From assembly GCA_002238485.1 (NCBI GenBank), contig MPMG01000006.1, positions 124,001 through 188,000 on the forward strand: a stretch of 64,000 nt of DNA. The letters are read 5' to 3'. A program made the translations under genes and the position numbers. Below, in pieces: positions 16,376 to 53,340 of the stretch. How positions within the stretch are numbered: position 1 is the first letter of the stretch; each line of letters starts with the position of its first letter. Origin of the DNA: Chloroflexi bacterium bin20. GTDB taxonomy: Bacteria; Chloroflexota; Anaerolineae; Aggregatilineales; Phototrophicaceae. Under the pieces are notes generated by a model. It searched no databases. It saw only the letters and a program-made list of their open reading frames with translations, and was not told the origin of the DNA.

Positions 16376-16541
16376 ACACAAAGGCTTTTTGCCACAGGGG
16401 CGCAGAGACACAGAGAAAAAGCCTTGTGTTGGTTGATCTCGCTCGTGATTCGTTTCGCTATTGGTCAATGCGGACGATCCAATGGCTCGCCCCTACACCG
16501 ACTTTTCGAGGGGGTTTGCCCTCTGCGCCCTCTGTGGTTAA
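16376..16541. repeat. Composite B-C-B element
   Basis: The left end GCCACAGGGGCGCAGAGACA and the right end CTCTGCGCCCTCTGTGGTTA are inverted copies of the B repeat. Between them is the C palindrome (GATCCAATGGCTCGCCCCTA). A second inverted pair AAGGCTTTTT (16381-16390)/AAAAAGCCTT (16416-16425) lies in the left end. The right end sits 37 nt before the SDR start codon and ends in TGTGGTTAAAT. Confidence 0.7.
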
Positions 16542-16577
16542 ATCGGTGTATGGCACGAGCATGCAAAGGAAACAGAA

Positions 16578-17372
16578 ATGCGACTCACGGGCAAATGCGC
16601 CATCATCACGGGTGGCGGCAACGGAATCGGCGCGGGCTGCGCGCGCAGGCTGGCGGCAGAGGGCGCTCAGGTCTTCATTGCCGATATTGACGATGCGGGC
16701 GGCGCGGCGCTGGCGGCAGAGTTGGGCAAAAGCGCGCGTTATGTGCGGACGGATGTATCGCAGCGAGCGGCGGTCGAAGCGCTGATGACGGCGGCGCTTG
16801 AAAACGGTGGATCGGTCGATGTGCTGGTCAACAATGCCGCTTTCGTGCACAAAGCGGGCGTGGTGGAAAACTTCCTCGAATACAGCGATGAAGCCTGGCA
16901 GCGCACCCTGGGCGTCAATCTGTCGGGCTTGTTTTATTGCTCGCAGGCGGCGGCGCGTTTGATGGCCCAGCGCGGGACGGGCGGCAGCATCATCAACATC
17001 AGCAGCGGCGGCGCAACCCGCGCGCATCGGCATATGTTCGGCTATGACACCAGCAAGGGCGGCATCGAAGCAGCCACGCGCTCCATGGCGCTGGACCTGG
17101 CCCCCGTGAATATCCGCGTCAATTGCGTCGTGCCTGGCAGCACCCGCGTCGACCATGGCACCTCCGTTGGCGATTCGCCGGTTGCGCCCGGCGATGTCAT
17201 CCCGCTTTCGCGACAGGGCAGTCCGGCTGATATCGCGGCTGCGGTGGCATTCCTGGCATCGGACGACGCTGCCTACATCACCGGCACGCGCATCGTGGTC
17301 GATGGCGGCATGGATGCCCAGTTGCGCAGTCCAGCCGTCGATTTCAGCTACGATTTCAGCGCCTGGACCTAG
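16578..17372 (+). CDS. Short-chain dehydrogenase/reductase
   Basis: 264 residues of the classical SDR type: cofactor motif TGGGNGIGAG near residue 11, NNAAF, catalytic Ser in INISSGG, and Tyr156/Lys160 in YDTSKGG. The C-terminus reads FLASDDAAYITGTRIVVDGG. The acidic residue after the second strand (IADIDD) favours NAD(H). It reduces or oxidises an alcohol group, perhaps on a sugar, since sugar importers surround it. The B repeat right end 37 nt upstream may provide its promoter. It converges with and overlaps the thioesterase gene by 4 nt. Confidence 0.9.
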   Translation: MRLTGKCAIITGGGNGIGAGCARRLAAEGAQVFIADIDDAGGAALAAELGKSARYVRTDVSQRAAVEALMTAALENGGSVDVLVNNAAFVHKAGVVENFLEYSDEAWQRTLGVNLSGLFYCSQAAARLMAQRGTGGSIINISSGGATRAHRHMFGYDTSKGGIEAATRSMALDLAPVNIRVNCVVPGSTRVDHGTSVGDSPVAPGDVIPLSRQGSPADIAAAVAFLASDDAAYITGTRIVVDGGMDAQLRSPAVDFSYDFSAWT

Positions 17373-17818
17373 CGTTCGGGCATTTGCAGCGCGCGCACTG
17401 CTCTGCGCAGTCTCCCAGCGATGCGCACGGGTTGATGCGTTTGACGGTCGACGAAGACATGCACAAAATAGCCGACTGCCGCCGCTGATTCTTCGCCCGC
17501 TTTGAAAATGGCGATCTCGTAGCGCACGCTGCTCTCCCCCAAATGCCCCACGCGCAAGCAGGCATCGACCACCTCGGGGAAACGGACAGGCTGCAAGAAT
17601 TGGCAGTGCGTTTCCACCGCGAAGCCCACGGAGTCGCCAGCGCGATAATCCAGCCCGCCCGCGTCCATCAAATAGCCGTTGATGACCGTGTCGAAGAATT
17701 CGTAATAAATGACATTGTTGATGTGATGATAGACATCGTTGTCTCGCCAGCGTGTGGGGATCTGGCGCTGGTGCTGGTAATGCTCGCGACGTTCTTGTTT
17801 GGCATTTCTTGCGCCCAT
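17369..17818 (-). CDS. Acyl-CoA thioesterase, 4-hydroxybenzoyl-CoA type hotdog
   Basis: 149 residues with the hotdog signature (TRWRDNDVYHHINNVIYYEF), where the first Asp is catalytic in the 4HBT family. It cleaves a CoA thioester. ATG 17818 was chosen because GAGGAAA sits 7-10 nt before it; an upstream TTG would add six residues. It lies tail to tail with the SDR and probably follows the msrB gene on the minus strand. Confidence 0.85.
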   Translation of the reverse strand: MGARNAKQERREHYQHQRQIPTRWRDNDVYHHINNVIYYEFFDTVINGYLMDAGGLDYRAGDSVGFAVETHCQFLQPVRFPEVVDACLRVGHLGESSVRYEIAIFKAGEESAAAVGYFVHVFVDRQTHQPVRIAGRLRRAVRALQMPER

Positions 17819-17846
17819 GCTGAATTTCCTCAACAAAACAGGATGC

Positions 17847-17875
17847 AGGGGCGAGACGGAAACTCGCCCGCAACA
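17847..17875. repeat. Type C palindrome
   Basis: GGGGCGAGACGGAAACTCGC plus CC: inverted GGCGAG/CTCGCC arms as in the C core elsewhere. It lies between msrB and the thioesterase gene, both on the minus strand. Confidence 0.5.
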
Positions 17876-17883
17876 CCTATCGC

Positions 17884-18282
17884 TTAGTCATTCTGCAAAT
17901 CCAGCGCCAGCGAATTGATGCAATAGCGCATGCCGGTCTTATCGCGCGGACCATCATCAAAGACATGTCCCAGGTGCGATTCGCAGCGCGTGCAGACGAC
18001 CTCGATGCGGCGCATCCCGTGGCTGCGGTCTTCGCGCAGTTCGACATGGTCGCCATCGACCACATCCCAGAAGCTGGGCCAGCCACAGCGCGAGTCGTAC
18101 TTCGTATCGGACGAAAAGAGCGCTTGTCCACAGGCGGCGCAGGCATAGGTGCCCGGCGATTTTTCATGGACATATTTGCCGCTGAAAGGGCGCTCGGTGG
18201 CTTGCCGGCGCAGGATGGCGTATTGATCCGGGCTTAGCTGTTTGCGCCATTCGGCATCGGACTTGCTGATTTTGGCGGTCAT
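17884..18282 (-). CDS. msrB: Peptide-methionine (R)-S-oxide reductase
   Basis: 132 residues covering the whole MsrB family: two zinc CxxC pairs (CAAC and CTRC), GWPSFW, HVELREDRSHGM and the catalytic Cys in RYCINSLAL near the C-terminus. It repairs oxidised methionine in proteins. ATG 18282 is preferred to the ATG six codons upstream since AAAGGAC is spaced 8 nt from it. No msrA is adjacent. With 37 Met residues or so in the secreted protein at 20.2 kb, a link is tempting but MsrB here lacks a signal peptide. Confidence 0.95.
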   Translation of the reverse strand: MTAKISKSDAEWRKQLSPDQYAILRRQATERPFSGKYVHEKSPGTYACAACGQALFSSDTKYDSRCGWPSFWDVVDGDHVELREDRSHGMRRIEVVCTRCESHLGHVFDDGPRDKTGMRYCINSLALDLQND

Positions 18283-18460
18283 GGCGGTTTGTCCTTTCTG
18301 CATCGCGTTTCCGCCAGTGTCGACGAGAATTGTTACGCGTGGCTAACGAGGGCATCTGTATTGTAATAGAAGGACGGGCGGTTTGCGCGGGTGGCAGCGC
18401 GTTGCAAAGGCGGCGCAATAGCGAGTAAAATCAGGCTGGGATGAGGGAAAGGAGCCAGAC

Positions 18461-18934
18461 ATGCCCAGGCAAATCGACATCGCAGAAGTCGCGCGCGGCT
18501 TCGATTTCTTCATGACCGAAACATTCGAACAAGTGCGCGGCGCATACCTCGACAAAGGCGACTCGCTTTTTGAGAGCCTGGCGCAGATCTCCGCCGCCGA
18601 TGCTTCTATGCCGATGGGCAGCTGCGCCACCATCGCCGCCCATGTCGCGCATATCGACTATTATCTGCGCGTGCTGGAAGACCGCATGTTCGGGCGCGAT
18701 GTCAGCTGGGTGAACTGGGACGAAATCTGGCAGACGGTCGGCGCGGTGGACGAAGCGGCTTGGGCAGCCCTGCAAGACGACCTGCGGGCGAGCTATGCGC
18801 GCATCAAGGGACACCTGGCCGGCGCGGACGAGTGGCAGGGCACGCGCGAGCTTTCCAGCCTGATGGGCATCATCGTGCACAGCGCCTACCACCTGGGCGA
18901 GATTCGCCAGATGATGTGCCGCCTGCGCTCGTGA
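18461..18934 (+). CDS. DinB/YfiT family protein
   Basis: 157 residues, mostly helical, with the DinB metal-binding His pattern: AAHVAHIDYYLR in the middle and HSAYHLGEIRQM at the end. DinB-like four-helix bundles act as metal-dependent thiol transferases (bacillithiol or mycothiol), but this subgroup is uncharacterised. It overlaps the next gene by GTGA, so the two are translated together. TAAAAT at 18424 is a possible -10 box. Confidence 0.8.
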   Translation: MPRQIDIAEVARGFDFFMTETFEQVRGAYLDKGDSLFESLAQISAADASMPMGSCATIAAHVAHIDYYLRVLEDRMFGRDVSWVNWDEIWQTVGAVDEAAWAALQDDLRASYARIKGHLAGADEWQGTRELSSLMGIIVHSAYHLGEIRQMMCRLRS

Positions 18935-20025
18935 AAACCGCCGTCGTCTATCACGAGCCCGGGCGATTCGCTGCTTGGCCCGCCAATTACGGCATGTGGC
19001 GCTGGGGTGACGAGATCGTGGTCGGCTTCACAGTCGGCGCGCACCAAACGGTCGCAAGCGGGCATGCGCGCGACAAGCGGCAGCCCTTCGTCAACAGGCA
19101 GGCGCGCAGCCTCGATGGCGGACGCAACTGGCAGGTCGAGCCATTCCATGGCGCGTTGCCGGGTGGGCGCGGATTGTCGGCGGACGAGCACATGACGGCT
19201 GGGCTGCGCCTGGCGGAAGTCATGGACGCACAGACTGCGACCGTGCCGCCCGAGCCGCTGGACTTCACGATTGCCGATTCCGCGCTGATGCTGGCGCGCA
19301 CCGGGTTGGCGCGGGGCGTTTTCTCCTTTTTCTATGTGTCATGCGACCGTTGCCGCAGCTGGGATGGACCGTATCGCCTGCCCGACTTCGGCGAGACGGG
19401 CATCGCCGCCCGCACAGATGGCATCGTGCATGGCGCGCAGGCAGCGACGCTCTTCCTGACCGCCAACAAAGCCGATGGCCGCGAGGGTCGCATTATCTGC
19501 GTGCGTACGCGCGATGGCGGGCGCAGCTTTCAGCGCCTGTCACAAGTGGGCGCGGATCTGGATGCGCCTGGCGACTTCGCGATCATGCCCAGCAGCTTGC
19601 AGTTGGCGGAGGGGCGTCTGCTGTGCGCGCGGCGTTGTCGCATCGGCGCCACGATGCGCAGTCATATCGACCTCTTCGCTTCGGATGATCTGGGCATAAG
19701 CTGGCGCTGCATCAGTCAGCCAGTCGTGTTTCAAAAGCCCGGGCACAGCGGCAATCCGCCTTGTTTGCTGGCGCTGGGCGATGGGCGGCTGGCGCTGCTA
19801 TATGGCAACCGCGATAGGTATGCCATCTGCGCGCGAATCAGCGAGGACGGCGGAATCAACTGGAGCAGGGAGATCGTGCTGCGTGGCGGCGGCGCAAATG
19901 GCGATATGGGTTATGTGCGGGCGGTCGTATTCGAAGACGGGACGGTGGTTGCGACCTACTATTTCAATGATCGTTCCGATGGCGATGGCGAGCGTTTCAT
20001 TGAAGCGACGATTTGGCAGCCATAA
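18931..20025 (+). CDS. Sialidase-like six-bladed beta-propeller (BNR/Asp-box) protein
   Basis: 364 residues starting at GTG 18931, which overlaps the DinB stop (GTGA). Four Asp boxes (S-x-D-x-G-x-x-W/F) are visible: SLDGGRNW, TRDGGRSF, SDDLGISW and SEDGGINW, which mark sialidase-type propellers. There is no signal peptide, so it acts in the cytoplasm or is moved by an unknown route. It could hydrolyse a glycoside. The catalytic Arg triad of sialidases cannot be confirmed by eye. Longer upstream reading lies inside the DinB gene and is rejected. Confidence 0.8.
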   Translation: MKTAVVYHEPGRFAAWPANYGMWRWGDEIVVGFTVGAHQTVASGHARDKRQPFVNRQARSLDGGRNWQVEPFHGALPGGRGLSADEHMTAGLRLAEVMDAQTATVPPEPLDFTIADSALMLARTGLARGVFSFFYVSCDRCRSWDGPYRLPDFGETGIAARTDGIVHGAQAATLFLTANKADGREGRIICVRTRDGGRSFQRLSQVGADLDAPGDFAIMPSSLQLAEGRLLCARRCRIGATMRSHIDLFASDDLGISWRCISQPVVFQKPGHSGNPPCLLALGDGRLALLYGNRDRYAICARISEDGGINWSREIVLRGGGANGDMGYVRAVVFEDGTVVATYYFNDRSDGDGERFIEATIWQP

Positions 20026-20111
20026 GGCCCGCGATGAGAAATGACCAACCTGCGCGGCAACTGCTCGTCATGGTTTGGATTCTAGTTTTCGGGGTGTAAT
20101 AGATTGTTAAT

Positions 20112-20138
20112 TTGAAAACAAGCATCACGATGTATACT
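20112..20138 (+). promoter_or_regulatory. Promoter of the spondin-like gene
   Basis: TTGAAA at 20112-20117 and TATACT at 20133-20138. The 15-bp spacer is short. It lies in an AT-rich stretch about 50 nt before ATG 20189, which has TTTTAGGAG as ribosome binding site. Confidence 0.5.
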
Positions 20139-20188
20139 TATAGTTGCAGAATTTCCTGCCTGGAAACCAAGTTTTAGGAGCATTCAAA

Positions 20189-21097
20189 ATGCGCAAATTG
20201 ATTTACCTCTTTGCCTTGCTGCTGCTGATGTGTAGTGGCAGCGTCTTCGCCGATAGCCACGACGGCGATGACATGTCGATGGGCATGCCGTATACCGAAG
20301 GCGGCGTAGCGGCTGTGCCTGTCGGTGGTGATGGTCCCGCTCCCGCACATCCTGGCGGCGCTTACGAATTCATCATTCATGCCAACGAAGGCGACAGCCT
20401 GACCTTCGCCAGCATGCTCGCCCAATCCAACGATGGCTTCCTCGCGCCCAATGAATATGGCATCGCTCTCTATGACATGGGCGAGCCGGTCAGCGGCGAT
20501 GTTACCGACCAGGTCTATTATTGGGATCTTGGCAGCGAACGCAACGAGCCGATTGGGGAAGGCATGTATCAAGCGCCGCGCCAAGCCGCGCCCAATAGCG
20601 GCCCGGCCGGCGATGGCATGGTTCGCCTCGCCAGCGACCTCAACGACAACTTGAGCTATCCCACTGCCGATGAGATCGTCTCGGTTACGCTGACCCCCGG
20701 CGACATGGGCACGATCACCGTGCGCATCGAAAATGTCTCCGACATGTCCATGTATCCCTCGCCTATCACGCCGGTCTTCTGGGTCGTCCAATCGTCTGAT
20801 GACATGATGATGATGGATGAAATGATGATGATGGATGACGACATGAGCGACGACATGGCTGATGACGATATGAGCGACGACATGGCTGATGACGACATGA
20901 GCGACGACATGGATGACGACATGGGCGACGACATGATGGACGACGACATGATGATGATGAAGCATGGCTTCCTCTTCACCTCTGGCGCGCCCGATTACGG
21001 CTATGGTTTGGAGAGCCTGGCGGAAGATGGCGATCCTTCAGCGTTGGCTGCGCATCACGGCATCGACATGGACGACATGATGATGGACGATATGTAA
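20189..21097 (+). CDS. Secreted spondin-domain protein with Met/Asp-repeat tail
   Basis: 302 residues. There is a signal peptide (MRKLIYLFALLLLMCSGSVF, cleavage near FADS). A spondin-N-like domain covers about residues 25-205 (FASMLAQSNDGFLAPNEYGI, YYWDLGSERNEPIGEGMYQA). A tail of about 60 residues (208-265) is made almost only of Asp and Met with 9-residue MSDDMADDD units, and the C-terminal end is again DMDDMMMDDM. Bacterial spondin-N proteins are secreted and of unclear role. The tail is strongly acidic and Met-rich, suited to binding Ca2+ or soft metals such as Cu(I). No partner gene is linked. Confidence 0.85.
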   Translation: MRKLIYLFALLLLMCSGSVFADSHDGDDMSMGMPYTEGGVAAVPVGGDGPAPAHPGGAYEFIIHANEGDSLTFASMLAQSNDGFLAPNEYGIALYDMGEPVSGDVTDQVYYWDLGSERNEPIGEGMYQAPRQAAPNSGPAGDGMVRLASDLNDNLSYPTADEIVSVTLTPGDMGTITVRIENVSDMSMYPSPITPVFWVVQSSDDMMMMDEMMMMDDDMSDDMADDDMSDDMADDDMSDDMDDDMGDDMMDDDMMMMKHGFLFTSGAPDYGYGLESLAEDGDPSALAAHHGIDMDDMMMDDM

Positions 21098-24536: not shown

Positions 24537-24567
24537 AATCTCTGTGTCGTTGCTTCTTTGTGGTAAA
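24537..24567 (+). repeat. Type B repeat, right end
   Basis: AATCTCTGTGTCGTTGCTTC followed by TTTGTGGTAAA. It abuts the type A element and ends in TGTGGTAAACT, an extended -10-like sequence, 38 nt before the PhyH start codon. Confidence 0.65.
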
Positions 24568-24604
24568 CTAAGCGTCGCTCGAAAGCCGATCTTGGAGCGA
24601 CAAA

Positions 24605-25645
24605 ATGACTGAAGACATCAAAGAACTGCGCGTATCCAACGATGCGCTGGACGACCCAAAAGAATTGCAGCGGCGCATCGCTGACGAAGGCTATCTGTTC
24701 TTTCGCGGCTTGATGCCCGCCGACCGCCTGCGCGCCCTGCGTTATGAGATGATGAGCACCATTCAAGAGGCGGGTTGGCTGGTCGCTGGCACGAATCCTG
24801 CCGATGGCATCGCCGACATCAACATGCGCTATACCGAAGGCGACAACGAATACACGACTGGCTATGCCCAGGTCTACAAGCTGGAAAACTTTCACCGCAG
24901 CGCCCACTGGGACGAAGTTACCAGCACGGTTTCCAAGATCCTGGGTGGCGAGATCATGCCGCATCCGCAGAAAGTGGCGCGCATCTGGTTTCCAAAATAC
25001 ACCGAGCACACCACACCCACCCACCAGGATTATGTGCACTTCCAGGGCAGCTTCAACACCTTGACCTGCTGGGCGCCCGTGGGCGATTGTCCGCTGGAGC
25101 TGGGCGGGCTGGCGGTCATCCCGCGTTCGCATCGCGTGCAGCGGGTGCTGGAGCATCACTTTGCGCTGGGGGCGGGCGGTTTGATTGTCGACGAAACCGA
25201 ACACGACGAGATCGACCCGGTCTGGCATTCCACCGACTACGAATGCGGCGATGCGCTCTTCTTCCCCGCACTGACCATTCACAAGGCATTGCCTAATTAT
25301 ACCGAAGACCGCCTGCGCCTGTCGCTGGACAACCGTTACTTGAAAGTGGGCGAAGAGATCGCCGAGCACATGCTGCTGCCGCACGGACCCAGCAAGCTCG
25401 GCTGGGACGAGATCTATCCGCATTGGCAAGCCGACGACCTGAAATACTATTGGCGCGGGGTTGACAACCAGGTAGTCGCGCGCGACCAGAGCTTCAAGGA
25501 AAAAGGCTGGGCAGAGGCGCTTTCGCGGGCCCGGAATGGCGATGAAGCGGCTATCTACAGCCTGGTGCGGACAATCAAAAACGACCCCGCCAGCCCGCAT
25601 GAGGATGCCCGCGCTGTGCTCGCCGAGCTGGGCGTGGCTGTGTAA
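24605..25645 (+). CDS. Phytanoyl-CoA dioxygenase (PhyH) family protein
   Basis: 346 residues of the Fe(II)/2-oxoglutarate oxygenase family: metal ligands His140 and Asp142 in THQDYVHFQG, distal His226 in ALTIHKALPN, and the 2-oxoglutarate Arg in DRLRLSLDNRY. It hydroxylates an unknown substrate. These PhyH paralogues are numerous in sugar-specialised environmental bacteria. CTTGGAGCG before ATG 24605 is a fair ribosome binding site. A B-repeat end just upstream may supply the promoter. A desaturase follows on the same strand. Confidence 0.88.
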   Translation: MTEDIKELRVSNDALDDPKELQRRIADEGYLFFRGLMPADRLRALRYEMMSTIQEAGWLVAGTNPADGIADINMRYTEGDNEYTTGYAQVYKLENFHRSAHWDEVTSTVSKILGGEIMPHPQKVARIWFPKYTEHTTPTHQDYVHFQGSFNTLTCWAPVGDCPLELGGLAVIPRSHRVQRVLEHHFALGAGGLIVDETEHDEIDPVWHSTDYECGDALFFPALTIHKALPNYTEDRLRLSLDNRYLKVGEEIAEHMLLPHGPSKLGWDEIYPHWQADDLKYYWRGVDNQVVARDQSFKEKGWAEALSRARNGDEAAIYSLVRTIKNDPASPHEDARAVLAELGVAV

Positions 25646-25703: not shown

Positions 25704-26864
25704 ATGAGCTATCAACCGCTATCCGAAGTGCGCAAGACCCTGCGCGTGGACTGGTATCGCTGCCCCACCAAGCCGGGCAGACTGCGGGAATTGTCGCGAC
25801 GCAGCGATGCCCAAGCCTGGCTGCAAGCGGGCGGGCATTTTGCCTTGTTTCTGCTGACGGGCGCGCTGATCTTGGCTTGCTGGCTCAACGAATGGTGGCT
25901 GCCATTTCTGCTGGCGCTCTTCGCCCATGGCACAATCGCCAGCTTTTTCATCGGCACCGCCCCGCACGAGCTGGGGCATGGCACTGTCTTCAAAACCAAG
26001 ATTTGGAACAAAATCTTTCTGTACCTATTCAGCTTGATCGGCTGGTGGGATCCTTTCGACTATGCCAGCAGCCACACCTATCACCATCGCTACACCTTGC
26101 ATCCAGAAGGCGACCGCGAAAATCTGCTGCCGCTCGAGCCTTCGCTGGCTTCGTTCTTTATGCTGCAGCTATTCACGGTCAACCTGCTGACGCAGCGCGG
26201 ACGTACATTCGGCAAAGGCGGCTTGCTTTCCACCATCATGGTAACGGCGCTGGGCGCGGTCGGGCTGGTGGGCAGCGACGAAATCCCGATCAACGAATGG
26301 CTCAAAGCGCTGCATCAGGATCAACCCGAGCAGCATCGACGGTCGGTATGGTGGTCGCGCCTGCTGTTGGCTTTTCATGGCAGCGTCTTGGCGATTGCGC
26401 TGCTGACAGGCTGGTGGGCGCTGCCGCTCATCTTGACCGTGCCATCGTTCATCGCCAACTGGCTGTCCTACTTTGTGGGCTTGACGCAACATTGCGGCTT
26501 GCGCGATCACAGCCGCGACTTCCGCAAAAACACGCGCTCGGTCAAGCTGAATCCGCTGGCATCGTTTTTGTACTGGCGCATGAACTGGCATATTGAGCAT
26601 CACATGTATGCCGGCGTGCCTTGCTACAACCTGGCGCGCCTGCACAATGAAATCAAAGACGACATGCCCCAGCCGCGCAGTTTGGTCGAAGCCTGGCGAG
26701 AGATGCGCATGGTCTGGCACCGTCAACGAACCGAGCCCGACTATCAATATGACACGCCCCTGCCGCCCACAGCCAATCCCGAACCGCCGCTGGAAGTAGC
26801 CCTGCGCGCCGCGACAGATTTAGAAAGCTCCATCGGCGAACTGGCGCCTGCCGGTTTGGAATAA
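25704..26864 (+). CDS. Fatty acid desaturase
   Basis: 386 residues with the three His boxes of membrane di-iron desaturases: HELGH (88-92), HTYHH (124-128) and IEHHMY near 300, plus QHCGLRDH. Membrane segments lie before box 1 and between boxes 2 and 3. It introduces double bonds into acyl chains using O2, or hydroxylates a lipid such as a carotenoid. TACAAT at 25670-25675 and GAGGTGCC precede ATG 25704. The Pro-rich C-terminal tail (LPPTANPEPPLEV) is not part of the catalytic domain. Confidence 0.9.
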   Translation: MSYQPLSEVRKTLRVDWYRCPTKPGRLRELSRRSDAQAWLQAGGHFALFLLTGALILACWLNEWWLPFLLALFAHGTIASFFIGTAPHELGHGTVFKTKIWNKIFLYLFSLIGWWDPFDYASSHTYHHRYTLHPEGDRENLLPLEPSLASFFMLQLFTVNLLTQRGRTFGKGGLLSTIMVTALGAVGLVGSDEIPINEWLKALHQDQPEQHRRSVWWSRLLLAFHGSVLAIALLTGWWALPLILTVPSFIANWLSYFVGLTQHCGLRDHSRDFRKNTRSVKLNPLASFLYWRMNWHIEHHMYAGVPCYNLARLHNEIKDDMPQPRSLVEAWREMRMVWHRQRTEPDYQYDTPLPPTANPEPPLEVALRAATDLESSIGELAPAGLE

Positions 26865-26873
26865 CAGGATTTC

Positions 26874-26960
26874 ACCACAGTGTCGCCAGTGTGTAGCTGC
26901 AGATTCCATATGTGGGCGACCCAATAGCTTGCCCCTACATCAACCTCTGGGCCCCTGTGC
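26874..26960. repeat. Composite B-C-B element
   Basis: TTCACCACAGTGTCGCCAGT at the left, the C core GGGCGACCCAATAGCTTGCC with CCTACA, and a degenerate inverted B end CCTCTGGGCCCCTGTG at the right. It lies between convergent genes, so it is not a promoter here. Confidence 0.6.
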
Positions 26961-29623: not shown

Positions 29624-29680
29624 GTCTCTGTGGCAAGAACCCTTTGTGCCCTTTGGCATTTCTTCGTGTTTTTGTGGTTA
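29624..29680 (+). repeat. Tandem type B repeats
   Basis: GTCTCTGTGGCAAGAACCCT and CTTCGTGTTTTTGTGGTTA, both in the same orientation, as in the copy at 14975. The end TGTGGTTAAATT lies 42 nt before the dehydratase start codon. Confidence 0.7.
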
Positions 29681-29722
29681 AATTGTCGTTCGTAGACTCG
29701 AAAAAGCGAAAGGAGCGCCCAC

Positions 29723-31441
29723 ATGCGCAGCCACGACTGGTTCTTGCGCGATGGCCAAGCCGGCTTCAAAGCGCGCAGCCGCATGAAAAATCAGGGCAGT
29801 CCCCAGCAGATGTTCGACGGTCGCCCCGTCATCGGCATCTGCAACACCTGGTCAGAGCTGACTCCCTGCAATGCCCATCTGCGCATCTTGGCTGAACATG
29901 TCAAACGCGGCGTGCTGGAAGCGGGCGGCTTCCCGCTCGAGTTTCCCGTCATGTCCCTGGGCGAAACGTTGATGCGCCCGACCACCATGCTCTATCGCAA
30001 CCTGGTCAGCATGGATGTCGAAGAATCGATCCGCGCCAACCCGTTGGATGCGGTCGTGCTGCTGGTCGGCTGCGACAAGACGACGCCAGCCGCCATCATG
30101 GGCGCTTGCAGCGTCGATATTCCCAGCATCGTTGTGACCAGCGGACCCATGCTCAATGGCAAGTTTCAAGGGCGCGACATCGGCGCGGGTACGGACAAAT
30201 GGCGCTTCACAGACGACTGGCGCAGCGGGCAGATGTCCACTGCCGACTACATCGAGTCCGAGACTTGCATGTCGCGCAGTGACGGGCATTGCATGACCAT
30301 GGGCACAGCCTCCAGCATGGCTTGTGTGGTCGAGGCGCTGGGATTGATGCTGCCGGGTGGCGCGGCCATCCCCGCTCCCGATGCCCGTCGCCGCCGTCTC
30401 TGTCATTTCAGCGGCAATCGCATCGTGCAGATGGCGCGCGAGGATTTGAAACTATCGCGCCTGTTGACCCGCGCCGCTTTTGAAAATGCCATCATCGTGA
30501 ATGCTGCCATCGGTGGCTCGACCAATTGTGTTTTGCACTTGCTGGCCATCGCCGGGCGCATCGGGGTCGAGCTGACGCTGGACGACTTCGACAAGCTGGG
30601 CGCGGATGTGCCGCTGCTGGTCAATCTCAAGCCGGCTGGCGAGTTCTTGATGGAAGAATTCTATTATGCGGGCGGTCTGCCGGTGGTCATGCAGCATCTG
30701 CGCGAAGTGCTGGACATGGACGCGCTGACTGTCACGGGCGAGAGCCACGCCCATAATACGGCAGAGGCTGTCTGTTATGACGATTCGGTCATCGCCAGGC
30801 TGGATGCGCCATTCCAGGAAGGCGCTGGCATCGTTGTACTGCGCGGCAACCTCGCCCCCGATGGAGCGGTCATCAAGCCCTCGGCTGCCAGTCCCGCGCT
30901 GATGCAGCATTGTGGGCGCGCTGTCGTCTTTCATTCGCTGGAAGACTTTCACGCGCGCATCGATTGTCCAACGCTGGATGTGGACGAAGATTGTGTGCTT
31001 GTGCTGCAACATGTCGGCCCGGTCGGCTTCCCTGGCATGCCCGAGGTGGGCAATATGAGCCTGCCGCAGAAGCTGTTGGAACGCGGCGTGCGCGATATGC
31101 TGCGCTTGTCCGATGGACGCATGAGTGGCACAGCGTATGGCGCAGTGGTGCTGCATATCGCGCCCGAATCGGCGGTGGGCGGTCCGCTGGCGCTGGTCCA
31201 AGAAGGCGATATGATCGAGTTGAATGTGCCCGAGCGCCGCCTGCATTTGCATATCAGCGATGACGAACTGGCCATGCGCCGCGCAGCCTGGCAAGCGCCC
31301 CCGCCATCTGCCGAACGTGGATATACGCGGATCTTCCTGGAAAATGTGCAGCAAGCCGACCGCGGCGTTGATTTTGATGTGCTGGTCGGCGGGTCGGGCG
31401 GCGCTGTTGTCAAGACATCCGATGCGCAAGCCGGCAGTTGA
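29723..31441 (+). CDS. IlvD/Edd family sugar-acid dehydratase (L-arabinonate dehydratase-like)
   Basis: 572 residues. Cys49 (ELTPCN), Cys117 (VGCDKTTPA) and Cys190 (DGHCMTMG) ligate the [2Fe-2S] cluster; their spacing of 68 and 73 residues is that of pentonate dehydratases, and RSRMKNQG near the start is also typical of that group rather than of IlvD for branched amino acids. It removes water from an aldonic acid to give a 2-keto-3-deoxy acid. GLSDGRMSGT-like LRLSDGRMSGTAYG is present. AAAGGAGC precedes ATG 29723. With the sugar importers nearby it fits non-phosphorylating pentose oxidation. Confidence 0.88.
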   Translation: MRSHDWFLRDGQAGFKARSRMKNQGSPQQMFDGRPVIGICNTWSELTPCNAHLRILAEHVKRGVLEAGGFPLEFPVMSLGETLMRPTTMLYRNLVSMDVEESIRANPLDAVVLLVGCDKTTPAAIMGACSVDIPSIVVTSGPMLNGKFQGRDIGAGTDKWRFTDDWRSGQMSTADYIESETCMSRSDGHCMTMGTASSMACVVEALGLMLPGGAAIPAPDARRRRLCHFSGNRIVQMAREDLKLSRLLTRAAFENAIIVNAAIGGSTNCVLHLLAIAGRIGVELTLDDFDKLGADVPLLVNLKPAGEFLMEEFYYAGGLPVVMQHLREVLDMDALTVTGESHAHNTAEAVCYDDSVIARLDAPFQEGAGIVVLRGNLAPDGAVIKPSAASPALMQHCGRAVVFHSLEDFHARIDCPTLDVDEDCVLVLQHVGPVGFPGMPEVGNMSLPQKLLERGVRDMLRLSDGRMSGTAYGAVVLHIAPESAVGGPLALVQEGDMIELNVPERRLHLHISDDELAMRRAAWQAPPPSAERGYTRIFLENVQQADRGVDFDVLVGGSGGAVVKTSDAQAGS

Positions 31442-42041: not shown

Positions 42042-42067
42042 CACCCACTCCCGAGGCACAGATGCTT

Positions 42068-42092
42068 AGTGTTCTTTATGTTTTTGTGGTTA
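42068..42092 (+). repeat. Type B repeat, right end
   Basis: AGTGTTCTTTATGTTTTTGT followed by GGTTA. With the next bases it reads TGTGGTTACAAT, in which TACAAT (42091-42096) is a good -10 box, 37 nt from its last base to the start codon at 42133. Confidence 0.65.
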
Positions 42093-42132
42093 CAATAGAG
42101 TTTCGTATACACAAAGCAATCTGGAGATTCTC

Positions 42133-43050
42133 ATGCGCAAACTCTCGCTGCTCCTCGTCTTGCTGCTCGCTATTGCTGGCGCTGCCTTCGCTCAAGATGC
42201 GCCAAGCATCGCTGTCATGACGCCTTTCCTCGCCCAGCCCGGCACGCAGCTGATGGTCGAAGGTTTTGAAGCCGCCGCCGCCGACAAAGGCTGGCAGGTC
42301 AATGTCATTGATACCAGTGAAGATATCGCCGCCCTGGTCAGCCGCATGGAAGATGTCGCGCTGCAAGGCGTGGATGCCATCGTCATCAATGTCGATCCCA
42401 CGCAGATCGAACCAGGCTTGCAGGCCGCCGCCGATGCCGGCATTCCTGTCTTTGGCCTGGATTCGGGCGCGCATCCGCTGCTGGCCACCAATGTAACCAG
42501 CAATGGCTATACCATGGCCGCCGAGACCGCCACCTATGTGGTCGACCGCCTGAACGGCGCGGGCGATGTGGTGATGTTCATTTTCGAGCCCTATCCGCCC
42601 GTACAAAAGCGCGGCGCAATCGCCCAGGCCATATTTGATAACAGTCCCGATATCAGCATTCTGGACGCCATCACGCCCAGCTTTGACAATGGGCCGCTGG
42701 AAGGCGCGCGCAATGCCATGGAAGCGGTGCTGCTGGCAAATCCTGAAGCGGGCAGCATATCGGCGGTCTGGGCGGCTTGGGACGATCCCGCTCTGGGCGC
42801 GCTGCAAGCCGTCGAAGACGCCGGACGCGCTGACGAAGGCATCGTCATCGTTGGCATAGACGCCACCGACCAGGCTCGTGATGCCATCGCGCGCGGCAGC
42901 AATTTTGAAGCGACTGTCGCGCAAGACTTCAGTGGCATGGCGGCGCGTGTGGCCGACCTGGTCGAGGCGCATCTGGGCGGCATGATGAGCGCGCAGGTCA
43001 ACCACTATGTGCCGGCGCGTCTGGTAACCCAAGCCGACCTGACGGGATAG
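42133..43050 (+). CDS. Ribose-type ABC transporter substrate-binding protein
   Basis: 305 residues with a Sec signal peptide (MRKLSLLLVLLLAIAGAAFA, cleavage before QDAP) and the RbsB/LacI-type two-lobe fold (SIAVMTPFLAQPGTQLMVEG, VDAIVINVDPTQIEPGLQ, IVIVGIDATDQARDAI). It binds a monosaccharide for the ATPase and permease that follow. CTGGAGATTC precedes ATG 42133. It is the first gene of a binding protein-ATPase-permease-kinase operon. Confidence 0.92.
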   Translation: MRKLSLLLVLLLAIAGAAFAQDAPSIAVMTPFLAQPGTQLMVEGFEAAAADKGWQVNVIDTSEDIAALVSRMEDVALQGVDAIVINVDPTQIEPGLQAAADAGIPVFGLDSGAHPLLATNVTSNGYTMAAETATYVVDRLNGAGDVVMFIFEPYPPVQKRGAIAQAIFDNSPDISILDAITPSFDNGPLEGARNAMEAVLLANPEAGSISAVWAAWDDPALGALQAVEDAGRADEGIVIVGIDATDQARDAIARGSNFEATVAQDFSGMAARVADLVEAHLGGMMSAQVNHYVPARLVTQADLTG

Positions 43051-43054
43051 GGGG

Positions 43055-43259
43055 ATTCACCACAGAGGCGCTACGGTCTACCCCCTCGGTCCATCCCGAA
43101 AAGTCGGGGAGAAGGCTGCTGCGAGCCGCCTTCTGTTATGCAGAGTTGTTGTCGGGGCGAGGCGGTGACTCGCCCGCAGCAGCCGATAGTTGGAAGACGG
43201 GCGACCCAATGGCTCGCCCCGACATCGTCCTCTGTGTCCTCGGTGTCTCTGTGGTGGAA
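43055..43259. repeat. Composite B-A/C-B element
   Basis: TTCACCACAGAGG at the left and CTCTGTGGTGGAA at the right are inverted. Between them lie a type A core fragment (43081-43114, CCCGAAAAGTCGGGGAGAAG) and two C palindromes (near 43153 and 43200). It fills the gap between the binding-protein and ATPase genes and ends 6 nt before the ATPase start. Confidence 0.7.
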
Positions 43260-48691: not shown

Positions 48692-50308
48692 TCAGCGCGC
48701 AACTCGCCGCGCATAGGCGGGCCATTCCAGCGGCACACCCAGCTGCGTCGATAACAGATGCTGGAAGTCGCGCAGATGCGAGCGAATAGTGCCCACTTGT
48801 CGCGGCGCCAGCCCTTTGTCCAGGCAGAAGCTCGCCAGCGCCCCAGCCGCCTCGCCGATATTCCATTCCACCGGATGCAGCCGATAGCAACCATTGGTGA
48901 TATGGGTTACGCCCAGATTCTTGCATGCCGGCAGCAGATTCTCCACCCGCTGGGGCAATAGCGCGCCCAGGGGAATCTGGAATGGATAGCTGCTGATGTC
49001 AATGTAGCTGCGCAAGCCGCTGCTGGGGTGCAGGTCGATGCGGTAGCTGCCGATGCCCACGCTGTCGGCGAATTGCTCGGCAGTGGTCAAGTCGCCGCGC
49101 TGCACTACGCCGACATGGCTTTCGCAGACGGTGAACTCAGCCTGGATGCGCCGCGATTCGCGCACATAGGCGGCCTTCGCCAAGCCGTCTGTCGTCCCGA
49201 CAACATCGTGCCGCAGCCGCAAGCCCGGATAGCCATAGCCCCCGCCTTTGTGACGCGGCGCTTCTGTCTGCATCCAATACAACAGCGAATAACTCAGCTG
49301 GCGGCATTCGTGCAAGGCCTGCGTTTCGTCGGCTTCGCTGACGCCCAGCAGCGGCTTCAGCCAATAATCGATATGCGGCCAGTTGACCAGTGTGATATCG
49401 CTTGGGAATGCGCCGGGCAAGAAGTGCTCTTTGTACAAGATGCGCCGATAATGCCAGAAGTCGCCTGGCGAACCGCCAAATCCGCGCGTCGGCGGACGAT
49501 CGCTATGAAAGATGCCGCGCTTGCGCGTCTCCAGCGTCATCGGATGCACATCTTGCCAGCCCAGCTGCTTGCCGGGCCAGAAGTCGGCTTGGTACTCGCG
49601 CCAAAAGTCATAATCGGCTGGCTTGTCGATCGTGTGGTCTTCGCCGGGCAAGTGATCGATGGCAAAACACCAGCTGAATGCTTGCTGATCCAGCGGCTGG
49701 GGATCGCCTTCCAGCGCGTGCAGTTCGCCCGTTTGCGCCTGGCTTTCCGCGCCGATGACAAACTCGACATTTGCCAGCTCCAGCAGATCGCCGAGCTCGG
49801 TGGCGTCCAGGATATAGGGCGCGCTGACCACAAGCTGGTCGCCTGTGCGCCTGTCTTGCAGGGTCACCGCCAGCACCCGATCGCCATCGGTCTCGGCTGC
49901 CACCGGCACATGCTGCAGCAAGATGTCCAGTTGCTGGCTGCTGCGGTAGGGAGCAAGCATGCCTTCAATAACTGCCAGTGCGGCGCGTGGTTCGTGGCAG
50001 AGCCGGCTGACACTGCCCTGCCCGGGATTAAAATTGATGATGCGGCGCGCGGCTTCGGTCAAAGGATAATTGCGCCGGTAATAGTCGCGCACGCCTTCGG
50101 CAAAGCGCATGTACGAGGCAGTCGCTCCGCATTGCTCGACCCAGGGATTTTCATCGGGCGGGACAGCTTGCGCAGTCAGTTGGCCGCCGATCCAGTCTGT
50201 TTCTTCGCTCATGATGACCGACTTGCCCATGCGCAGGGCAGCCAACGCCGCTCCTATCGCGCCAGTGCCACCGCCTACTACAAGAATGTCGCATTGCCGA
50301 TCTTTCAT
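48692..50308 (-). CDS. FAD-dependent oxidoreductase (FAD_oxidored, PF12831-like)
   Basis: 538 residues with an N-terminal FAD motif (CDILVVGGGTGAIGAALAA), the family hallmark EETDWIGGQLTAQAVPPDE, and a C-terminal LLPACKNLGVTHITNGCYRL plus VEWNIGEAAGALASF. PF12831 members are common in polysaccharide-degrading bacteria and poorly characterised. No signal peptide is present. It leads a pair with the Gfo/Idh gene and is divergent from the P-loop protein gene at 50437. Confidence 0.88.
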   Translation of the reverse strand: MKDRQCDILVVGGGTGAIGAALAALRMGKSVIMSEETDWIGGQLTAQAVPPDENPWVEQCGATASYMRFAEGVRDYYRRNYPLTEAARRIINFNPGQGSVSRLCHEPRAALAVIEGMLAPYRSSQQLDILLQHVPVAAETDGDRVLAVTLQDRRTGDQLVVSAPYILDATELGDLLELANVEFVIGAESQAQTGELHALEGDPQPLDQQAFSWCFAIDHLPGEDHTIDKPADYDFWREYQADFWPGKQLGWQDVHPMTLETRKRGIFHSDRPPTRGFGGSPGDFWHYRRILYKEHFLPGAFPSDITLVNWPHIDYWLKPLLGVSEADETQALHECRQLSYSLLYWMQTEAPRHKGGGYGYPGLRLRHDVVGTTDGLAKAAYVRESRRIQAEFTVCESHVGVVQRGDLTTAEQFADSVGIGSYRIDLHPSSGLRSYIDISSYPFQIPLGALLPQRVENLLPACKNLGVTHITNGCYRLHPVEWNIGEAAGALASFCLDKGLAPRQVGTIRSHLRDFQHLLSTQLGVPLEWPAYARRVAR

Positions 50309-50436
50309 GGTCCGAGTCCATTATCGCCAACCAAGTCATGCCAGCGCGGCTATTGTAACCGTAATTGAGCTGCGCTGGCTGCGCGCGGAATCGGAGAAGA
50401 CGCCGCGAATTGAAAGCGCGCCACCCTACAGGTATC

Positions 50437-51219
50437 ATGGACAGCATGACTCCCCACGACCATTACATTCGCCAGGTTATGCCAGGCTTGGACAGTTGCC
50501 CGCTGCAGCGCTATCCCGCCATAAGCCTCTTGCCGCGCGCCGACAACCGGCCACTGGGCGATTGCGCGCTGTTGATGCTGGTCGGATTGACTGGCTGCGG
50601 CAAGTCGACCACCCTGGCGCAGCTTGACGGTGGCGGCATGCCTTCTCGCCGCGAAGTCGCAGACTGCATCGCCATTCCCTATGCTCAGGCCCTGGCTGGC
50701 GAAGCTCTGCTGCCTGTGCAAGATCGCGCGCGCCGATTTAAATACACGCGCCGATTTGCCCAGGCTGTGCCCGGAGGAATGGCTGCGGCTTTCTCGTGGC
50801 TGTGGCTGCACAACGATGCGCAGAAACCGCTGTTGACCGAGGGCATCCGTGGCGATGCAGAGCTGCACTTCGCCTTGGGCTGCTTCCCGCGCTGGCGGGT
50901 CGTCGAGCTGGCGCTGCCGCCTCTGCATCGTCTGCGGCGTCTCAGCGGACGGCAGGACGAGTTCGACCAGGTAGAAGAAGCCGCCGATCTGCGCTTTTTG
51001 CCGCGTGAATTGCGGGACGAAGCGCGCACACTGCTTGTCAGAGGCGAGATCAACCAGCGGGCGCTGGCCATCGTGCGGGCAGAAGCGCAGAATTATGGCT
51101 TGAACCCTTTCGCCGCTGGGCAAGACTATTCCAATTATCAGCGACTGGATGTGGCGCGCATGACACCAAAAGCCGTCACGGAAGCCGTGCGTGATTTGCT
51201 GGCCTTGCCATGCCCGTGA
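50437..51219 (+). CDS. P-loop protein of unknown function
   Basis: 260 residues with a clear Walker A (GLTGCGKSTT, 50-59). The rest (PSRREVADCIAIPYAQALAG, RGDAELHFALGCFPRWRVVE, LRFLPRELRDEARTLLVRGE) is unlike common kinases. It is probably a small-molecule kinase or NTPase. It overlaps the dipeptide epimerase gene by 10 nt, so the two are tightly coupled. ATG 50437 or ATG 50446 can serve as start. Confidence 0.7.
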   Translation: MDSMTPHDHYIRQVMPGLDSCPLQRYPAISLLPRADNRPLGDCALLMLVGLTGCGKSTTLAQLDGGGMPSRREVADCIAIPYAQALAGEALLPVQDRARRFKYTRRFAQAVPGGMAAAFSWLWLHNDAQKPLLTEGIRGDAELHFALGCFPRWRVVELALPPLHRLRRLSGRQDEFDQVEEAADLRFLPRELRDEARTLLVRGEINQRALAIVRAEAQNYGLNPFAAGQDYSNYQRLDVARMTPKAVTEAVRDLLALPCP

Positions 51220-52292
51220 TCGAACGCATAAGCTGCCAGCCGCTGCATGTGCCGCTGAAGGGCACGTTGACCTGGGGGCAGGGGCACGAGCTGCCGGCGC
51301 TGCAGCATGTACTCGTGCGCGTCGACTTGTCCGATGGCGCAGTTGGCATCGCCGAAGCCACGCCGCGGCCCAGCATCTATGGCGAAACGAGCGCCTCCGT
51401 CCAGCATATCCTCGTCGAGGAGCTTGCGCCGCGCCTGCGGGGTCGAGTCCTCAGCGACTTTGAGTCGGTTGCCAGATTGAGCGCGGAGATGGCGCATATC
51501 AAAGCCAACAACACCGCCCGGGGCGCGCTGGATATCGCACTGCACCAGGCGCTGGCGCAGAGCCGAGACCAGCCGCTGCGGGATTATCTGGGCTGCAGGC
51601 GCGAGTCGATTCCACAGAGCGGCATCGTCAGCACGGGCGATAGCGACATGGTGCGGTCGGATGTGGCAGGCGCTTATCAACAGGGCCTGCGCGTCTTCAA
51701 GGTCAAGATCGGGCGCAATATCCCCGCCGAAAGCGACAACCTGCGCGGCATGATGGCGGCTTTCCCGGCGGCGCGCTTTTATGTCGATGCCAACGAAACA
51801 CTAGCGCCCGAGACCGCTGCGCAGACACTGGACGCGCTGCATGAACTGGGCGCGCTCTATTGCGAAGAGCCGCTGCCTGTGCATCTGCTGCGCGCGCGGA
51901 GCCTGCTGCGCCGTCAAACTGCCATGCCACTGATCGCCGATGACAGCGCCTTCACCCCGCGCGAGCTGGATCGCGAGCTGGACTTCGACACCTTTGACAT
52001 CCTCAACATCAAGACGGCGCGCACGGGTTATTCGCAATCGCAATCGATGCTGCTGCGAGCGGCGGCGCAGGGCAAAGGTGCCATGGTCGGCTCGCAAGCC
52101 AGTTCGCTGCTGGGCTGTTTGCAGGCGGCGCTCTTCGCGGGCCGCGCAGAAGTCGACTGCCCGAGCGAGTGCAGCTTCTACCTCAAAACCGAAGCCGACC
52201 TGGAGCTTGCGCCAGAGATTGTCAATGGCTGCTGGTCGCTGGCGGCGGTGGAAACAGCGCTGCATGCCCTGTGTGAAGCATTGACAGCTTGA
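51210..52292 (+). CDS. Dipeptide epimerase-like enolase-superfamily protein
   Basis: 360 residues of the muconate-lactonizing subgroup: KVKIGRN (second Lys is an acid/base), metal ligands in VDANE, CEEPL and ADDS, and a C-terminal NIKTARTGY with a Lys on the other face. Two Lys acting across the site mark racemases/epimerases such as L-Ala-D/L-Glu epimerase, which serve murein peptide recycling. Other N-acyl amino acid racemases are possible. It overlaps the P-loop gene and precedes a D-aminopeptidase gene, which supports a peptide role. Confidence 0.82.
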   Translation: MPVIERISCQPLHVPLKGTLTWGQGHELPALQHVLVRVDLSDGAVGIAEATPRPSIYGETSASVQHILVEELAPRLRGRVLSDFESVARLSAEMAHIKANNTARGALDIALHQALAQSRDQPLRDYLGCRRESIPQSGIVSTGDSDMVRSDVAGAYQQGLRVFKVKIGRNIPAESDNLRGMMAAFPAARFYVDANETLAPETAAQTLDALHELGALYCEEPLPVHLLRARSLLRRQTAMPLIADDSAFTPRELDRELDFDTFDILNIKTARTGYSQSQSMLLRAAAQGKGAMVGSQASSLLGCLQAALFAGRAEVDCPSECSFYLKTEADLELAPEIVNGCWSLAAVETALHALCEALTA

Positions 52293-52307
52293 TTATCAAC
52301 GTTTTCT

Positions 52308-52479
52308 CCCATCCCAGGAGTGGCGGAAACCGTGGAGACCCCAACATCGTGGGCATGTAGGGACGACACTTGTGTCTCCCATCCGCGACAGACCGCAGGA
52401 AACGCGGACGAGACATCGCCTCGCCCCTACGCCGTTCCCATTCTGATCAACCTTTGTGCCCTTTGTGTCTTTGTGGTTA
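52308..52479. repeat. Composite A-end / C / B element
   Basis: AGGAGTGGCGGAAACCGTGG resembles the left end of type A copy 1; GTAGGGACGAC...GCCTCGCCCCTAC is a C-type palindrome (52358-52434); CCTTTGTGCCCTTTGTGTCT followed by TTGTGGTTA is a B right end (52451-52479). It fills the 232-nt gap before the D-aminopeptidase gene, whose start codon lies 45 nt after the end. Confidence 0.65.
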
Positions 52480-52524
52480 CGATTCGCATGACTTACTTTG
52501 TTCTGCTAAGAAAGGACGCGCGCG

Positions 52525-53340
52525 ATGAAAATCCTAATCATGGCCGATATGGAAGGAGTCAGCGGCATCGTCACCTGGAATCAGGTAACCGGTGGCGCGC
52601 CGATGTACGAAGAGGGCCGCCGCCTCTACACCGAAGAAATCAACGCAGCCGTACGGGGCGCGCTGCGGGCTGGCGCAGACGAAGTGGTGGTGGTCGACTG
52701 CCATGGCGCTGGTGGCGACTGGAGCTTCAACTCGCTCATTCCTGAATTGCTGGAGCCGGCTTGCAGCTGGGTCGCCCATCATCCCTGGTCGCGCTATACC
52801 GAGCTGTTGGAAGCGGGCGCAGATGCCTGCCTGCTGGTGGGCATGCACGCGCGAAACAATACCGCCGACGGCGTGCTCTGCCACACCATCAGCACGGTCA
52901 AATGGCACAACTTGTGGTTCAACGATGACCTGGTGGGCGAAGTCGGCATCAATGCCGCGCTGTGTGGGCATTATCGTTGCCCGGTGCTGCTGGTTACTGG
53001 CGATGAAGCGGTCTGCCGCGAATCGACTGCGCTGCTGGGCAATGGACTGACGACAGTGGCGGTCAAACGCGGGCTGACGCGCTATTCTGCCCGGCAGATC
53101 CCGCCCGTCCGCGCGCGCGAGATGATCGAGGCGGGCGCATGCCAGGCGCTCGAAGACCTGGCTGCTGTACAGCCCTATGTGCCCGGCTCGCCAGTCGCCA
53201 TCACCATCGAGGTCGACAAGGTGGAAAAGATGGCGGACTTTCGCGGACGGCCCGGCGTTGCACTGGATATGGCTGCGCAGAAAGTCATCAGCCGCGCCGA
53301 CACCTGGATGGCAGCCTGGGACCAGATCTGGCACTGGTAG
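52525..53340 (+). CDS. M55 family D-aminopeptidase (DppA-like)
   Basis: 271 residues with the DppA zinc-site residues: MADMEGVSG at the N-terminus (Asp and Glu ligands), VVDCHGAGG, LLVGMHARNNT and VTGDEAVCRE. DppA is a self-compartmentalising decamer that removes D-amino acids from peptides such as D-Ala-D-Ala. Next to a dipeptide epimerase it suggests salvage of cell-wall peptides. AAAGGACG precedes ATG 52525. A B-repeat end may act as promoter. It converges with menA, with a 4-nt gap. Confidence 0.92.
   Translation: MKILIMADMEGVSGIVTWNQVTGGAPMYEEGRRLYTEEINAAVRGALRAGADEVVVVDCHGAGGDWSFNSLIPELLEPACSWVAHHPWSRYTELLEAGADACLLVGMHARNNTADGVLCHTISTVKWHNLWFNDDLVGEVGINAALCGHYRCPVLLVTGDEAVCRESTALLGNGLTTVAVKRGLTRYSARQIPPVRAREMIEAGACQALEDLAAVQPYVPGSPVAITIEVDKVEKMADFRGRPGVALDMAAQKVISRADTWMAAWDQIWHW

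Follow-up and report, generated by a model that had tools for sequence, protein, structure and literature searches.

The window analysed here is a 64,000-nucleotide (nt) stretch of Chloroflexi bacterium bin20 (contig MPMG01000006.1, positions 124,001 to 188,000 of the forward strand), part of a 3.66-Mb genome in 22 contigs that is 94% complete. Five of its plus-strand genes, for a short-chain dehydrogenase (SDR), a PhyH-family protein, an IlvD/EDD dehydratase, a sugar-binding periplasmic protein (below, the ribose-binding protein) and a DppA-type D-aminopeptidase, stand behind short sequences that the initial annotation had taken for right ends of a dispersed repeat and read as portable promoters at a fixed distance from the start codons (Table 1). 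All five distances proved exact. The list of TGGTTA copies was incomplete: the window holds five TGTGGTTA copies, all on the plus strand, against 0.46 expected, and the fifth, the copy 102 nt from the next start, had been omitted. Overall, the observation was partly confirmed and its interpretation partly supported. Below we argue that repeat ends of the TTA type sit at promoter position and probably work as promoters.

Table 1. Repeat ends, -10 boxes and genes of the window (positions count from its first letter)
Feature	Positions	Strand	Remark
Degenerate array CCTCTGCGCCCTCTGTGG running into -10 TTAAAT (16538-16543)	16520..16543	+	37 nt before SDR start
SDR gene, adh_short_C2	16578..17372	+	Pfam
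CTTTGTGGTAAACT, extended -10 (TAAACT)	24556..24569	+	38 nt before PhyH gene
PhyH-family gene	24605..25645	+	
Degenerate array ending TTTTTGTGGTTAAAT; -10 TTAAAT 29678-29683	29641..29683	+	42 nt before IlvD
IlvD/EDD dehydratase gene	29723..31441	+	
Degenerate array ending TGTGGTTACAAT; -10 TACAAT 42091-42096	42063..42096	+	40 nt before ribose-binding-protein gene
Sugar-binding periplasmic protein gene	42133..43050	+	Peripla_BP_4; ribose-binding protein of the initial annotation
Intact array CCTTTGTGCCCTTTGTGTCTTTGTGGTTACGAT, long-tailed copy type; -10 TACGAT 52478-52483	52451..52483	+	45 nt before DppA
DppA-type D-aminopeptidase gene	52525..53340	+	Peptidase_M55
Long-tailed TTA copy, TGTGGTTAAGAT at 15028-15035	15007..15068	+	102 nt from next start; absent from G007
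Native -10 TATAAT of next gene (15138)	15091..15096	+	Conserved in G007
TGTGGTGA-type end, not a promoter end	7983..8003	-	
Native -10 TAGACT of gene 6908-7927	7936..7941	-	dppB of the initial annotation; TAAACT in G007
TGTGCTGA-type end, not TGGTTA	54275..54295	-	
Native leaderless -10 TAAAAT of gene 53345-54244	54251..54256	-	menA of the initial annotation; in place in 5/5 species
TGTGGTGA-type end directly past stop of gene 25704-26864	26872..26880	-	
TGTGGTGA-type end abutting stop of gene 42133-43050	43054..43074	-	
TGTGGTGA-type end after stop of gene 55725-56786	56808..56828	-	

Repeat ends were collected genome-wide as exact TTTGTGGTTA sites (23), exact YTSTGTGGTKA sites (63) and CYTTTGTGTCTTTGTGGTTA sites with at most three mismatches (38). 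Once duplicates had been joined and other ends inside the fetched loci added, 102 distinct ends were read, 98 of them outside called genes; ends fewer than 150 bases from a locus edge were excluded before counting. Core conservation within this genome is built in, because the sites were found by exact patterns. TGA ends were collected in the CTCT flavour and not in the TTTGTGG flavour; the comparison of CTCTGTGGTTA with CTCTGTGGTGA ends in the CTCT flavour, where both were searched for, is free of the resulting bias. Gene calls came from a custom script based on codon usage, which was trained on the window together with six further 20-kb stretches, and not from a standard caller. The genome under study is designated G000, and the relatives are 33 other genomes of the genus, numbered from G001 onward. 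By the dppA gene, the closest named relatives are metagenome bins titled Anaerolineae or Chloroflexi, several of which we take, from their isolate names, to come from sponges.

The distance between a repeat end and the next gene depended on the type of the end. Of the TGTGGTTA (TTA-type) ends, 22 of 37 lay 30-50 nt upstream of a co-oriented start, which we call promoter position, compared with 0 of 49 TGTGGTGA (TGA-type) ends and 2 of 16 other ends. The difference between T and G ends was large (Fisher p=5.5e-11), and against a background of 3.3% of directional intergenic positions in that zone the count for TGTGGTTA ends has P=2e-23; a fixed end-to-start distance, as initially claimed, is thus borne out genome-wide for this class. 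Within the CTCT flavour, where the two ends are one base apart, 12 of 14 CTCTGTGGTTA ends were in position and 0 of 44 CTCTGTGGTGA ends (p=1e-10). The idea that every repeat end is a promoter was rejected on the zero count of the TGA type.

The TTA-type ends fall into two classes. Those without a GCATGACTTAC-like tail were in position in 18 of 22 cases. The long-tailed ends, which look like intact repeat copies, were in position in 4 of 15 (dppA at 52479, L005, L009 and L015; P=1.3e-3 against the 3.3% background). Most intact copies therefore lie off promoter distance, and the short-tailed class carries most of the signal. One further short-tailed site, L019, would stand at 42 nt if an ATG replaced the caller's TTG start; it is outside the 22 in position, yet within the 19 short-tailed sites scored for arrays below. 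The copies are also unevenly spread: the window, 1.7% of the genome, has 4 of the 23 TTTGTGGTTA sites, and the 913-kb contig C15 has 1 of these and 2 of the 63 YTSTGTGGTKA sites. Outside this genome, CTYTGTGGTTAMRAT was present in 19 of the 33 other genomes of the genus and in 0 of 27 genomes outside it. Of the 27 relative loci read (from 37 matches, the other 10 having no locus), 15 stood 30-50 nt before a start. Looking for the array across phyla, which is not a proper test here, gave a match in 4 of the 80 loci fetched, each from a record titled Anaerolineae.

Extended -10 promoters of the sigma-A type read TRTGNTATAAT. In 84 generic upstream regions of the genome, TANNNT peaked at 40-49 nt before the start, with 29 occurrences against 8 on the other strand. 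The native extended -10, TGTGSTANAMT, had 66 matches against 4 for a reversed control; among the 30 of these sites that were read, 28 were co-oriented with the next gene, and the median distance from box end to start was 37 nt. On the same scale the TTA ends in position lay at 29-42 nt. Since this is the distance of the ordinary extended -10 promoters of the lineage, a -10 region is the most fitting reading of the TTA end. The sequence of the box points the same way: the mean best match to TATAAT was 4.4 of 6 for TTA ends in position, 3.5 for TTA ends elsewhere and 2.7 for TGA ends, and all 22 T ends in position matched at 4 or 5 of 6. As in sigma-A extended -10 promoters, TGTG stands just 5' of a TANNNT hexamer whose distance to the start is the usual one; unlike them, TTA-type ends often carry one extra base (TGTGGT-TAMAAT). 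Farther upstream, T occurred at -26 in 21 of 24 and C at -20 in 17 of 24, both positions that also fall inside array units. The claim of an extended -10-like box at the repeat end, at a fixed distance equal to that of native boxes, therefore stood, and such ends recur in other species of the genus.

We then asked how much of the repeat remains upstream of these cores, using an array score that tolerates variable spacing. TTA-type ends in promoter position (P sites) with short tails keep decayed tandem units; their mean score is 9.9 of 14 (n=19), compared with 5.9 for generic upstream DNA and 6.7 for the 30 native extended -10 sites (p=6.6e-6). Long-tailed P sites score 14. Other groups of copies average 11.5-14, and three short-tailed sites out of position average 8.7. 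Near-identical sequence 5' of non-homologous genes is seen for the four long-tailed copies with a score of 14; most of the others have in common only the core and a decayed array. Where CTCT-type arrays scored 11 or more, TGA ends had their last unit at a spacing of 8 in 30 of 32 cases, and short-tailed TTA ends at a spacing of 9 in 4 of 5, L070 being the fifth and out of position; in relatives, TTA sites showed a spacing of 9 in 20 of 26. A fixed-offset array profile was discarded, as it had scored the CTCT-type P sites as non-repeat, which it did because their last unit is mostly spaced 9, not 8.

Orthologous genes allow the core and the array to be followed separately; this was done for 7 of the 24 in-position genes and, in one relative, for PhyH. 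Upstream of an amidase gene, 8 of the 30 species compared have an array with TTAAAAT; on a quick protein tree this distribution requires at least 8 changes, and two of the eight (G001 and G008) read TGTAGTTA. The native box was not seen in these eight, and most of the other species have TGTGSTAMACT or some other -10-like box in that position. Promoter states were judged by eye, and the amidase counts leave out G003 and G004, which lack the 5' part, G015, which is ambiguous with TGTGGCAAAAT, and G033, which is absent from the tree. The array with its -10 thus appears to behave as a replaceable unit at the amidase, where delivery of a -10 by the repeat is best supported. The 18-base amidase leader CCTGTCATCAACCCGCAC is identical in G000 (L061/L200) and G019 (L131/L217), whose amidases are about 73-74% identical, and may have moved together with its promoter.

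Presence and absence of the putative promoter at orthologous genes were found not only at the amidase but also at dppA and at an MR_MLE gene. The TTA end of dppA is shared by G000, G015 and G028, the full array being confined to G000; G003, G007 and G023 carry other arrays, and no array was seen at the promoter in the remaining species read. The MR_MLE gene has an array with TTACGAT in G000, TTACAAT without an array in G003 and G007, and CTTTGTGGTTAAAAT 32 nt from the start in G030. At both genes delivery of the -10 by the repeat is plausible. A third array flavour, CTCGGTG, lies 5' of dppA (G007 and G023) and of the SDR gene (G007 and G003), at loci L142, L171 and L173 in G007 and G003 and L168 in G023; there G000 has CTTTGTG or CTCTGTG.

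At other genes the -10 core also occurs without an array. The core YTGTGGTTAAATC of a GH4 gene was found in 15 of 15 members of one clade with a GH4 match (10 first read and 5 fetched later). Outside this clade G008 has it, and it was absent from the 8 other relatives first read and the 3 fetched later. Over the first 10 species, 14 of 15 core columns were invariant, against 1 of 65 columns of the ungapped flanks and 29 of 140 fourfold sites (mean identity 66%), and at least 8 of the 15 clade members had no visible array. On the tree the TGTGGTTA core at GH4 changed 3 times among 27 species, of which 17 have the core (the 15, G008 and G000, counted as a carrier though its box reads TTACGAT), and the arrays were labile, with 5 changes for 5 occurrences. 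These counts omit G033, which is not in the tree, and species without fetched upstream DNA, and array absence was judged by eye for seven later-fetched upstream regions. The ribose-binding protein keeps its -10, TACAAT or TATAAT, in G000 and its close relatives G007, G028 and G015, and the PhyH orthologue of G015 has TGTGGTAAACT without an array.

Such stable cores under changing arrays raise the possibility that the repeat prefers to insert beside promoter DNA that is melted or rich in A+T, its end coming to abut an existing -10 without adding activity. Site preference is also seen at the TGA-type ends, 12 of 49 of which lie within 13 nt of the stop of the facing gene, against 2.4% expected (p=1.3e-9). 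We consider this explanation rather unlikely, as target preference alone accounts neither for a behaviour confined to TTA ends nor for the replaced native -10 at the amidase.

Several points nevertheless weigh against the reading of TTA-type ends as promoters supplied with a repeat. Eleven of the 15 long-tailed T ends, the window copy at 15028 among them, lie off promoter distance, and so do 12 of the 27 relative loci (9 at other distances and 3 without a co-oriented next called gene). The array scores of 5 of the 19 short-tailed P sites are not above the 95th percentile of the control. Arrays at the ribose-binding protein are moderate in G000 and G007 and missing in G028 and G015; the SDR gene of G015 has GTGGTAAATCGG without an array, and that of G028 has neither. 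At these two genes relatives have the -10 with no clean array, and therefore either the repeat did not bring it or the array was lost there. For IlvD a TTA end at promoter distance was found in 0 of 14 relatives, many of which show TATACT-like boxes; in G019 an array ends 55 nt from the start and a TTATACT box lies nearer the gene. Gene starts rest on the custom codon-usage caller, the sites on an exact-pattern search in which TGA ends of the TTTGTGG flavour were not sought. Comparing the GH4 flanks without gaps lowers their identity, and the change counts come without a shuffled expectation from a quick protein tree in which the amidase itself was included. The claim that a repeat had spread promoters is accordingly best supported at the amidase and plausible at dppA and the MR_MLE gene, and it is not supported as a general rule (ribose-binding protein, SDR, GH4).

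The genes downstream of these ends are less mixed than had been supposed. By a strict count, carbohydrate-catabolism families account for 12 of the 24 genes that follow a TTA-type or closely related end in position: three PfkB kinases, GH4, a fucosidase, NAGPA, SIS, a galactarate/altronate dehydratase, a sugar-binding protein, a DeoC/LacD aldolase, an SGSH-type sulfatase and a xylose-isomerase-like protein. Example sites of the sugar and sugar-acid set are L005, L014, L025, L031, L064 and the window gene at 42133. Such families made up 5 of 37 genes beside TGA ends (p=0.003) and 0-1 of 20 behind native extended -10s (p=0.0001-0.002); the TGA-neighbour set drew on loci outside the window and took 38 genes no shorter than 600 nt, from which the gene of L095 was left out because it also belongs to a P site. 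Since the categories were set after the names had been seen, we treat this enrichment as a lead, not a result, though it makes the initial statement that the functions are unrelated doubtful. It would fit a reading in which CTYTGTGGTTAAAT is the operator of a regulator of sugar or sugar-acid catabolism that overlaps the -10, the genes form its regulon and the copies of the repeat imitate the operator or descend from it. The invariance of the GH4 core over more bases than a -10 requires agrees with this, but half of the genes fit no single pathway and the core tails vary inside this genome (AAAT, CAAT, CACT, TACT); with a classification made after the list was seen, we regard an operator as unlikely.

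It is equally improbable that the sites are ordinary native extended -10 promoters whose TGTGG merely resembles the repeat end: such promoters are plentiful, and cores without a clean or visible array occur (ribose-binding protein, SDR, GH4 in 8 clade species, TGTGGTAAACT at PhyH in G015), but 57 of the 66 native boxes read TGTGC, the 30 native sites read lack the upstream units scored at short- and long-tailed P sites, intact long-tailed copies are also found at promoter distance, and at the amidase array and TTAAAAT co-occur in eight species in place of the native box.

We therefore return to the promoter reading and consider it likely, from position and sequence, that the TTA-type repeat end is a housekeeping-type promoter whose core and array are separable in evolution. 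The repeat would be built of units of 8-9 bp, CTYTGTGYC, ending in CTYTGTGGTTA plus AAAT, CAAT or AAAAT, and TGTGG with TTAAAT or TAMAAT would form the extended -10 region used by RNA polymerase. About 20-25 genes of this genome would be transcribed from such ends, with leaders of about 22-35 nt. The TGA-type end would lack a -10 and hence be no promoter, so that one base, TTA to TGA, would remove the -10. A -35-like TTGTGY may come from the units of the array, though such a role is not separable here from the array structure. Arrays would be gained, lost and swapped directly 5' of an existing -10, as at GH4, SDR and the ribose-binding protein, and sometimes array and -10 would arrive jointly and displace a native promoter, as at the amidase and probably at dppA and the MR_MLE gene. 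In this we infer both the direction of the changes and the way in which the repeat moves. A bolder extension is possible though doubtful: a plug-in promoter system in which tandem arrays are an interchangeable upstream part that docks in register onto TGTGG/-10 cores, the TTA/TGA base decides whether a promoter results, and the same catabolic genes, chiefly for sugar and sugar-acid breakdown, have been rewired repeatedly across the genus at an unchanged distance from the start.

The other repeat ends listed for the window do not belong to the TTA type. The initial annotation had assigned minus-strand promoter ends at 7985 and 54277 to dppB and menA; these read TGTGGTGA and TGTGCTGA (the latter type lying outside the genome-wide scoring), and the copies near 26874, 43055 and 56809 that pointed the wrong way are likewise TGTGGTGA ends. 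Repeat promoters for dppB and menA were rejected, because native -10s nearer the start are kept in one and four relatives respectively: TAGACT/TAAACT close to the dppB start (G000 and G007) and TAAAAT/TACAAT, leaderless, at menA in 5 of 5 species. These boxes end 8 nt (7936-7941) and 6 nt (54251-54256) before the start codons, which makes leaderless transcripts probable for both genes. The gene at 15138 keeps its native TATAAT in G007, where the repeat is absent. The stop-abutting TGTGGTGA ends of the window are those at 43055 and 56809 on the minus strand, and also that at 26874; TGA ends that adjoin stops possibly reflect a preferred target site or a function at the 3' ends of genes. A TGA-type subfamily with the closely similar tail ATTGACCTTGTGTCAAGCATGACGAAAAAGTTGTATCCAGGAATATAGAC (L030, L033, L039, L041, L046, L062, L063, L068 and window position 4680, minus strand) is apparently a recently spread element. 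Inverted repeat copies are present in the window as well.

As inferred from sequence, the system would work like several known cases of dispersed or exchanged promoters. The Correia repeat-enclosed elements (CREE) of Neisseria bear, at the end nearest the gene, a -35 and part of a -10, which is completed at some insertion sites (PMC2649163). Like those behind the CREE 'Black' promoter, the repeats here are short, dispersed and 5' of many genes, and only some of their copies would be promoters (PMC2649163); they share, as judged by position and sequence, a promoter-like box at the gene-proximal end that neighbouring sequence completes. CREE are inverted-repeat elements of about 70-157 bp with target duplication, whereas here the unit is an 8-9 bp tandem repeat in another phylum, and promoter position correlates with one end base (TTA or TGA). 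Mobile promoters, or promoter propagation, are a named concept (PMC8049555; Matus-Garcia 2012 and van Passel 2014, as cited there or in PMC9944727): similar short promoter-bearing sequences lie 5' of non-homologous genes in one genome, as the putative promoters here do. The difference is that the similarity in our case often comes down to about 15 nt and a decayed array, and that the -10 core can occur without the array. Exchange of regulatory regions independently of genes is described for pneumococcus and, by citation, for E. coli (PMC9944727). Such horizontal regulatory transfer or regulatory switching resembles the alternative upstream sequences scattered over the tree at one gene, the amidase (8 changes for 8 occurrences), except that the alternatives here keep the position of the -10 and one of them is a dispersed repeat. 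REP/RAYT palindromes have the tetranucleotide GTAG or CGTC at the foot of a hairpin (PMC3733652); the repeat consensus ends CTYTGTGGT[TG]A show neither, no search for a transposase or hairpin having been made. In listings of open-licence papers on Correia elements, promoter MITEs (miniature inverted-repeat transposable elements), repeats of Chloroflexi, promoters of sponge Chloroflexota, and mobile or exapted promoters, we found this repeat described nowhere, and our claim to novelty goes no further; a literal search with five 10-11-base strings gave no title on bacterial repeats among the matches listed.

If the promoter reading is true, the repeats would be a countable record of promoter exchange in uncultured bacteria, in which one gene can be traced through about 30 species while its promoter changes. 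The TTA-versus-TGA rule would allow those copies of a dispersed repeat that probably drive transcription to be told from the others by sequence, and TGTGSTANAMT would be the first promoter consensus for this genus of Chloroflexota.

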